Assembly: GCA_009695265.1 (NCBI GenBank)
Contig: SIBE01000003.1
Location: 1 to 48,626, forward strand
Length of the DNA: 48,626 bases
Source: Pedosphaera sp.
GTDB taxonomy: Bacteria; Verrucomicrobiota; Verrucomicrobiia; Limisphaerales; SIBE01
Reading direction: 5' to 3'
The position numbers were made by a program, and so were the translations under genes. Below are positions 2,640-4,190 of the stretch, piece by piece (position 1 is the stretch's first letter; the number at the start of each line of letters is the position of its first letter). The notes under the pieces were generated by a model. The model was not told where the DNA came from. It made no database searches and saw only the letters and a list, made by a program, of their open reading frames with translations.

Positions 2640-2938
2640 CAGGCGCTTGGCGGTCGTAGTGCCCGTTTTCCTTGGTCTTTGGTGGCAGCCAGGTTTTGGA
2701 CCGAGTTGAGGACCGAAACCAGGACTTTGCCTTGGTGGGAGGCATCGAGGACCTGGTATTCGTAACCTTCGGTGGCTTCGCAGATGACCTGCGGATGCGA
2801 GAGTTTGGCTAGATGTTTGGACAACTGAGTATGGTCTGGGGCATTGTTTTCGAACTCGATCTGATGGCCATTTGAGTGGACTTGGAGCGTGGCTTTGGTG
2901 ATGTCCATTCCGACATAGGTGGTGGTGTTTGGCGTCAT
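2640..2938 (-). pseudogene. IS110-family transposase, N-terminal remnant
   Basis: Starting from the ATG at 2938, the minus strand encodes about 95 residues of an IS110-type DEDD transposase N-terminus: TYVGMDITKATLQVHSNG holds the first catalytic Asp, and VICEATEGYEYQVLDA the conserved Glu region. The family is normally about 300-400 residues. Here similarity stops after VSVLNSVQNLAATKDQGKR, before the remaining catalytic residues and the C-terminal transposase_20 domain, so it cannot be active. The frame runs on across the 3' end of the beta-helix gene, but that part looks like unrelated sequence. The remnant abuts the stop codon of that gene at 2636 and suggests an old insertion and deletion here. 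Confidence 0.8.
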
Positions 2939-2995: not shown

Positions 2996-3029
2996 ACAAC
3001 CTTTTGTTGCATATGCGACGAAAGGTTGT
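2996..3029. promoter_or_regulatory. 34-bp near-palindrome, copy A
   Basis: The left arm reads ACAACCTTTTGTTGCAT and pairs with the right arm at 15 of 17 positions plus two G-T wobbles. It differs from the perfect palindrome at 3859-3892 at four positions, two of which form a compensatory A-T to G-C change. It lies 7 bases beyond the stop of the PaaX-like gene and 57 bases upstream of the IS110 remnant's ATG. It could be an operator, a mobile-cassette end or a hairpin. Confidence 0.75.
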
Positions 3030-3036
3030 CGTGAGA

Positions 3037-3822
3037 TCAGGGGCGGTGGAACGTGCGCAGTTGTCGGCTGGCGTCCCCGAGCACTTCCACCCTCCGCCGC
3101 CACGCCTGTTGCCCCAGGTAATCGGACGGCAGAATCCGGCCGGGCAGCAGCGGATCGTTCGTCACCGCCTCCATCCAGCCCTCGCGCTCCGCTGCCGCCC
3201 AACGCAGCAACGACTTCGCCCCCGCAGCGTTACGCAGCGTGTCGCCCGGTCGCTCGTCGAGGATTTTCAGATGCCGGGCATAACGGCGGTTGATGCGCTC
3301 GAAGTCCCACGCGCCCGCGACGATTTCCGGGTCCGATTCCCCCGCGCAGGGCCGCGCCTCCAGCAGGAGGAGCGATTCCACATTTATCTTCCCGCCGCCG
3401 AGAATCTGTCGTTCCTCCGTCAGCGCATCGGGCGTGACCCACACGCTTTTTTGCAGGCAGCCGAAGCCTTTGTAGCGCAGGTAGCGGCGCAGCCGTTCGC
3501 GCTGTGTATTTTGGCCCGTGGGCACGTCGAAGAGCACCAGTCGCCATTGCCCATCCCAAGGGCGGGCCCAGCGTTCCTCCGGGTCGCGCCCGCCCAGGAC
3601 GTGCAACCGCCCCTGCGCGGACAGCCTATAGAGCCGGTCATTGGGGGCGCTGGCGTCGCGCTCCAGGAGCTGTTGCTGCTCCAAGGTGGCGACCTGGCGC
3701 ATGAGGCCGTTGCGATAGGCCCAGCTTTCGTAGGAGTCGGTCAGGTTGCGAAAGGTCGGGCGCGCGAGCCTGTCAGCGGACCAAAGCAGGAGATTCAGGA
3801 ATTCCTCTGTCTTGGGTTGCAT
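3037..3822 (-). CDS. PaaX-family transcriptional regulator
   Basis: PaaX proteins are GntR-like repressors, first known from phenylacetate catabolism, where an acyl-CoA ligand releases them from DNA. The protein is 261 residues from the ATG at 3822 (MQPKTEEFLNLLLW, the usual start of the family). A TTG at 3852 would add ten residues and is possible. The N-terminal third is a winged helix (FRNLTDSYESWAYRNGLMRQ ... LYRLSAQGRLHVLGG). The centre (WDGQWRLVLFDVP ... RRYLRYKGFGCLQKSVWV) is the ferredoxin-like, Cas2-related PaaX domain. The C-terminal part (AGAWDFERINRRYARHLKIL) is the PaaX C-terminal domain. There are no phenylacetate genes nearby, so the target is unknown. The 34-bp palindromes on both sides suggest self-regulation, since one covers the region just upstream of the start. 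Confidence 0.88.
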   Translation of the reverse strand: MQPKTEEFLNLLLWSADRLARPTFRNLTDSYESWAYRNGLMRQVATLEQQQLLERDASAPNDRLYRLSAQGRLHVLGGRDPEERWARPWDGQWRLVLFDVPTGQNTQRERLRRYLRYKGFGCLQKSVWVTPDALTEERQILGGGKINVESLLLLEARPCAGESDPEIVAGAWDFERINRRYARHLKILDERPGDTLRNAAGAKSLLRWAAAEREGWMEAVTNDPLLPGRILPSDYLGQQAWRRRVEVLGDASRQLRTFHRP

Positions 3823-3858
3823 GCCGGAAGCATGGCCGGAGGTTTGAAACAACGCAAT

Positions 3859-3892
3859 ACAACCTTTTATTGCATATGCAATAAAAGGTTGT
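3859..3892. promoter_or_regulatory. 34-bp perfect palindrome, copy B
   Basis: ACAACCTTTTATTGCAT followed by its exact reverse complement. It lies 36 bases upstream of the ATG of the PaaX-like gene (6 bases from the alternative TTG), in the right place for an operator of a dimeric repressor. The near copy at 2996-3029 brackets the gene on the other side. Confidence 0.8.
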
Positions 3893-3895
3893 TAA

Positions 3896-4190
3896 GTCCC
3901 ATCAAACCGCTGCGTTGTTGACAGCGACGTCGTCTTCCCTCTCCACGCCAACCCCGACCCGCAAAGCGGCAGGCTCTTTGCCAAAGGCCCGTCGGACGTT
4001 CTTGACCACGCCACCGGCGAAATCGCCAGCGTCAGCGAACTTGGCATTGATGCGACGAAGAACCTTCCCGGCGAAGGATCCAAACGCCCCTGGCCGCCGC
4101 TTTGTTGCGAAGCATTCGCGCTCAGAGTTGCGCTGCTGGTGTGCCATCGCGCTATTCACCAAGTCTTTTCGTTATTTGGTGCTAATCTCT
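3896..4190 (+). other. Possible gene remnant between the paaX palindrome and the DUF47 gene
   Basis: This 340-base gap (3893-4232) holds a frame open from 3896 to a stop near 4190. Its translation reads like protein sequence in part (DSDVVFPLHANPDPQSGRLF, then DVLDHATGEIASVSELGIDA), but it has no start codon and begins immediately after the palindrome and a TAA. It may be the tail of a gene cut off by arrival of the paaX unit. No family was recognised. A promoter-like TATAAT for the next gene lies at 4197-4202. Confidence 0.3.

Follow-up and report, generated by a model that had tools for sequence, protein, structure and literature searches.

A PaaX-family gene bracketed by copy-specific palindromes: a possible REP-like repeat system in Verrucomicrobiota and Kiritimatiellota

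In a group of verrucomicrobial and kiritimatiellotal genomes, a PaaX-family gene stands between two copies of one palindrome, whose sequence is specific to each gene copy; gene and palindrome change together, and further copies of the palindromes are dispersed between genes. We put at about one half (0.5) the probability that this locus represents, within a REP-like repeat system run by a protein with a PaaX/Cas2 fold, the unit that carries the gene. In the literature covered, REP-type repeats are attributed to a single enzyme family, the IS200-related HUH transposases, and the closest known arrangement, the REPtron, comprises a RAYT (TnpA_REP) gene together with its cognate REP, BIME or REPIN repeats (PMC3116915, PMC6006769, PMC3733652). 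The locus described here lies in a 48,626-nucleotide stretch of Pedosphaera sp. DNA (the window), of which a first-pass annotation had been made from the sequence.

The window locus and its protein

The two 34-bp palindromes that the first-pass annotation placed on either side of a PaaX-type gene are present as described (Table 1) and differ from each other at four positions. Two of these, positions 11 and 24, form a true two-sided change (G-C vs. A-T); the remaining two give G-T in the left copy, and these are mismatches in DNA. When folded as DNA hairpins, the right copy has a z-score of -8.6 and the left copy of -2.8. Four palindrome matches were found in the window against 0.00 expected and none in shuffled windows; these shuffles, together with the random placements among relatives described below, rule out chance palindromes. 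The stop codon of the gene lies 7 bases from the left palindrome, as noted before. For the start, previously given as 6 to 36 bases from the other palindrome, the larger distance is the most likely one (ATG 3822 rather than TTG 3852), because the conserved family N-terminus M(Q/K)PKTEE begins there in the alignment to relatives. An Rfam search matched no known structured RNA.

Table 1 Features of the window locus and its immediate neighbours
Feature	Position	Strand	Remarks
Possible IS110 transposase N-terminal remnant	2662..2937 (approximate)	-	Neighbour outside the unit
Downstream palindrome (3' side of gene)	2996..3029	.	15/17 Watson-Crick pairs
PaaX-family protein gene, 261 aa + stop	3037..3822	-	Winged helix, Cas2-like centre (D99), PaaX_C
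Upstream palindrome (5' side of gene)	3859..3892	.	Perfect 17+17; centre 53 bases before start codon
UbiD C-terminus-like gene remnant	3896..4190	+	Neighbour outside the unit, adjoins upstream palindrome

No catabolic partner is seen near the window copy, in agreement with the first-pass annotation. Support for the IS110 remnant proposed there is weak, as its match to DEDD_Tnp_IS110 (E 5e-4) does not reach the Pfam cut-off. The gene remnant on the other side does resemble the C-terminal end of UbiD, and a homologue beside another truncated paaX-like copy matches UbiD_C; the window copy has no Pfam match of its own. UbiD C-terminal fragments recur near several gene copies (in the window; at L015, 2414-2926, where the fragment occurs twice in a row; and at L025, 1780-1935), and are also found at L043, L048, L050 and L078, about 1.5-2.5 kb downstream of the paaX-like gene. 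Elsewhere in the window, a 241-bp direct repeat (76-316 and 627-867, 87% identical) lies in surface-protein-like reading frames.

PaaX-family proteins are annotated as transcription repressors. The window protein, with an N-terminal winged helix, a Cas2-like centre and a PaaX_C end, matches PaaX_M at E 6.6e-18 and falls slightly under the PaaX_C cut-off; across 63 family members, Pfam finds PaaX_M in all and PaaX_C in 62, placing them within the broad PaaX family. The score against TIGR02277, the phenylacetate PaaX equivalog, is 57.9 bits, far under the cut-off of 264.55. By its sequence, the protein is a diverged PaaX-family member. An AlphaFold model built from 63 relatives (mean pLDDT 77, poorest in the N-terminal winged helix) is matched best by E. 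coli PaaX (8a39) in Foldseek, and VIA gives Z values of 13.7 for Rv0674, 13.2 for PaaX and then about 8 for Cas2 structures. While a Z of 8 by itself is weak evidence for Cas2, the relationship, already proposed in the first-pass annotation, is strengthened by the sequences: alignments of the central domain to Cas2 bring together the FD(V/L/M)P and QxSV(W/Y) motifs of the two (individual matches are weak), 13 of the 63 members match the Pfam Cas2 model (E up to 0.01), and D99 of the FDVP motif, which closes strand 1 at the catalytic position and corresponds to the aspartate of Cas2 FDMP, is invariant in 63/63. The QxSVW motif is likewise invariant in the PaaX-like family. The Cas2-type aspartate is replaced by Q, Y, S or V in the five catabolic or actinobacterial PaaX regulators compared, and is missing from E. 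coli PaaX and Rv0674 as well. Any enzymatic activity of the Cas2-like domain is putative. Pairwise dN/dS values are mostly 0.14-0.23 (0.37 for one very close pair), and for this reason we consider the protein to be maintained.

Several other assignments were rejected. PADLOC returned only weak Cas2 matches, arguing against a defence-system protein; no relative occurs in viral contigs or phages, so that phage cargo is discarded; and plasmid cargo is discarded since the plasmid matches are distant actinobacterial PaaX proteins (25-31% identity) and the palindrome has no plasmid match.

Palindromes matched to their gene copy

Relatives of the gene are present in 17 of 58 related genomes, with up to four matches per genome when fragments are included. 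From the species genomes, 96 candidates were confirmed and 80 loci kept, and every named one belongs to Verrucomicrobiota or Kiritimatiellota. Among the 76 relatives with full flanks, a strong 30-bp palindrome is found upstream in 53, downstream in 52 and on both sides in 41, compared with 0 of 2305 random placements; none of five canonical PaaX controls has comparable bracketing palindromes. Flanking palindromes at many other paaX-like genes, the first-pass annotation's own check of a palindrome-gene-palindrome unit, are thus present and support its reading as such a unit. With looser thresholds and similarity between the ends required, 47 of the 63 aligned members have a matched pair. The palindromes of the units measure 30-38 bp across copies, and the centre of the upstream one lies 50-55 bases before the start in most relatives.

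The palindrome sequences of different copies vary widely, from AACCTTTTGTTGCATATGCAACAAAAGGTT to AGCGTTGTGTGTCGATCGACACACAACGCT and CGAAAAATCGGGCAGGTGCCCGATTTTTCG. End-to-end agreement averages 26.1/30 within a copy, a mean somewhat inflated by the 18/30 threshold for a matched pair, vs. 14.3/30 between copies. In a shuffle test of the match to a copy's own end the observed value was 1228, and 10,000 shuffles reached 809 at most; for 34 of the 47 matched pairs, no other end scores above the copy's own partner. Because the palindromes differ greatly between copies and match within a copy, gene and ends co-evolve. The clearest single case of concerted end change is the orthologous locus L051/L053 (82% identity over 4 kb), where both palindromes have gone identically from GTCGCATATGCGAC to GTCCCACGTGGGAC with the outer arms unchanged. 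Correlating protein with DNA specificity by domain gives a partial r of 0.37 for the C-terminal and 0.19 for the N-terminal part. We also observed that in G061, the genome of L051, most of the dispersed palindromes listed have the centre of the sister unit L053, CCCACGTGGG, and not the CGCATATGCG of its own unit, as if the resident palindrome specificity had changed recently.

Gene copies within one genome have diverged, and several occupy conserved orthologous positions. Truncated copies exist in which the 3' part of the gene and its 3' palindrome are all that is left; a number of seeming truncations at contig ends reflect assembly edges and were left out of the evidence. In two copies of one genome (L016 and L032, both G035), the proteins are almost the same over their N-terminal halves and have diverged over the C-terminal ones, a pattern that suggests recombination between gene copies.

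Dispersed copies and repeated units

Palindromes matching the resident unit number 74 in genome G050 and 38 in G004, with 0 for reversed-pattern controls, and 18 and 15 in the sister genomes G073 and G074; a search with a general pattern gives a few to 24 in others. Some gene-bearing genomes have few or none, and most related genomes without the gene have no such palindromes. The dispersed types agree with the genome's own resident units in G032. The window's own genome contains three additional palindromes, two of which sit within a 132-bp repeat (98% identity) at different intergenic places. In G004, 32 of the 38 copies are identical over 24 bases, the unpaired central CC included, which suggests that they were copied from one source and not selected independently. 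Just one of about 120 dispersed palindromes is intragenic, vs. 76-85% of control positions, as judged with a simple codon-usage gene finder. Neighbouring genes are convergent at 21 sites and divergent at 2 in G050, the reverse holds in G004, and G073/G074 are mixed, so that there is no consistent promoter position. The palindrome feet in G004 and G050 read RCAAC/ACGAA plus mirror images, and a GT[AG]G-type tetranucleotide is absent from them. Two further observations concern the surroundings of these sites: on contig C73 of G050, the gene between two palindromes 918 bp apart reads as methyltransferase-like instead of PaaX-like (L213, 98-1040), and in G074 another intergenic repeat, about 60 bp long (GGTTCATGGGTAGG...), is dispersed in many copies beside palindromes (about 30 places listed for query part 2183-2250).

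Palindromes are dispersed not only singly. In G050, 18 of 25 intervals between neighbouring palindromes are 75-77 bp; the spacers are related (mean best identity 0.56, with 96-98% in some, vs. 0.32 after shuffling); and when doublets are compared pairwise, the alignment spans both palindromes in 150 of 153 pairs and the homology ends a median of 6-7 bases beyond the 24-mer. The boundaries are not always clean, as homology extends >30 bp further on one side in 16 of the 150. Taken together, interval, spacer and homology-edge data define a repeated unit of palindrome-52 bp-palindrome, bounded by palindromes like the gene unit. By their sequences, the small dispersed units do behave as copied units. 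For the gene-bearing unit, which the first-pass annotation took for a possible mobile cassette, neither a transposition event nor a clean empty site nor a target duplication was seen, and at the PhoU-like orthologous loci for the window copy the alignment of the flanks stops short of the palindrome. The sister genomes G073 and G074 have orthologous intergenic regions with and without a palindrome (L278/L309, L262/L288, L265/L290, L272/L293). The differences are larger intergenic blocks (about 325 bp in the clearest case) that contain other repeats; they indicate that the sites are unstable, not that a palindrome was inserted by itself.

In G004 the palindrome core is fixed, and offsets 5-8 outside the 24-mer vary between copies and pair within a copy (26, 28, 22 and 17 of 30, vs. 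shuffled means of 15, 16, 9 and 12). Such arm covariation is absent in G050 and G073/G074. It would be predicted by hairpin selection, by a hairpin step in copying or by template-switch repair, and not by plain operator contacts. The first-pass annotation had read compensatory change as selection for the palindrome; the covariation is real in this one genome, but template-switch repair would also yield it.

Possible explanations and what they would mean

In the REP-like system that we favour, a protein dimer would bind the palindrome through its winged helix, repress its own promoter from the upstream copy, and take part in copying palindromes to new extragenic sites; the Cas2-like active site (D99) would probably act on the extruded hairpin, together with host replication and repair. 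The organisation is like that of a REPtron: each repeat type has a single gene with its palindromes on both sides, gene and repeat co-evolve, the palindromes are dispersed in intergenic DNA singly and as doublets, and the distribution is patchy. In contrast to the HUH-Y1 transposase of a REPtron, the protein here has a PaaX/Cas2 fold, and the palindromes are longer, often perfect, and have no GT[AG]G foot. No HUH-Y1 (TnpA_REP) domain was found among the 63 proteins, for which Pfam gives PaaX domains and weak Cas2 alone; since the protein is no HUH transposase and the palindromes have no GTAG tag, the system cannot be classed as a REPtron. Our more specific proposal, that the PaaX/Cas2-fold protein itself recognises the palindrome, processes the hairpin and copies the palindrome around the genome as a second, independently evolved REP system, is held more tentatively. 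The protein shares fold and domain order with PaaX regulators (E. coli PaaX 8a39 and catabolic actinobacterial PaaX), but differs from them in the bracketing palindromes, the equivalog score, the lack of catabolic neighbours at the window copy and the invariant Cas2-type aspartate. Similarly, the central domain has the fold and the FD(V/L)P and QxSV(W/Y) motifs of Cas2/VapD, but is fused to a winged helix and PaaX_C and is tied to dispersed palindromes. A literature search, with most subscription journals and preprints outside its coverage, returned no matching paper on PaaX and Cas2, or on PaaX and palindromes or transposition.

The main competitor, which we regard as less likely, is a global regulator or chromosome organiser: a PaaX-like dimer that represses its own gene from the upstream operator, has dozens of other fixed binding sites around the genome and moves no DNA, the sites having spread through duplication and selection. 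Noc, MatP and ParB are proteins that bind dozens of fixed dispersed sites. The PaaX fold with its winged helix and the near-identity of the dispersed sites would be expected of such a regulator, and the near-constant position of the upstream palindrome suits a plain autorepressor as well as it does a REP-like system. The conserved orthologous positions that the diverged gene copies often occupy speak for a regulator too. They count against the REP-like reading, as do the gene-bearing genomes with few or no dispersed palindromes, the larger blocks by which the sister genomes differ, and the failure to find a transposition event, empty site or target duplication. On the other hand, a regulator does not account for sites that are not consistently at promoters, for a repeated unit that runs from palindrome to palindrome with related spacers, for the G004 arm covariation, unexpected of operator contacts, or for a second site at the 3' end of most copies that has no obvious regulatory reason.

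It is improbable that the gene is a passenger, merely binding palindromes or happening to lie between them while they are spread by an unseen HUH/REP transposase or by replication slippage or template switching. The REP-type architecture and, for template switching, the G004 arm covariation are compatible with this, but palindrome type follows the PaaX copy in the 47 matched pairs, which makes either route less likely; in addition, the palindrome foot carries no GTAG-type tag and genomes without the gene mostly have no palindromes. Least probable is a conventional small insertion sequence, in which the whole unit of ~0.9 kb transposes: like IS200/IS605 elements the unit is short, with one gene and hairpin-forming, matching ends, several copies occur per genome and truncated ones keep only the 3' part and palindrome, but no Y1 HUH transposase was found in the protein, the ends are long palindromes of the same sequence, copies within a genome are diverged rather than recent duplicates, several sit at conserved orthologous positions, and inspection of the window copy by eye found no target duplication.

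A genome architecture known until now from REP repeats with their transposase occurs here with an unrelated protein of the PaaX/Cas2 fold. Should the protein spread the palindromes, it would belong to a new class of mobile-DNA enzymes and would link Cas2-like domains functionally to mobile DNA; should it bind them and no more, it would be a regulator that evolves fast and has dozens of sites in the genome, and a clear example of co-evolution between protein and DNA. With about 50 protein-palindrome pairs matched by nature, the question can be tested directly.
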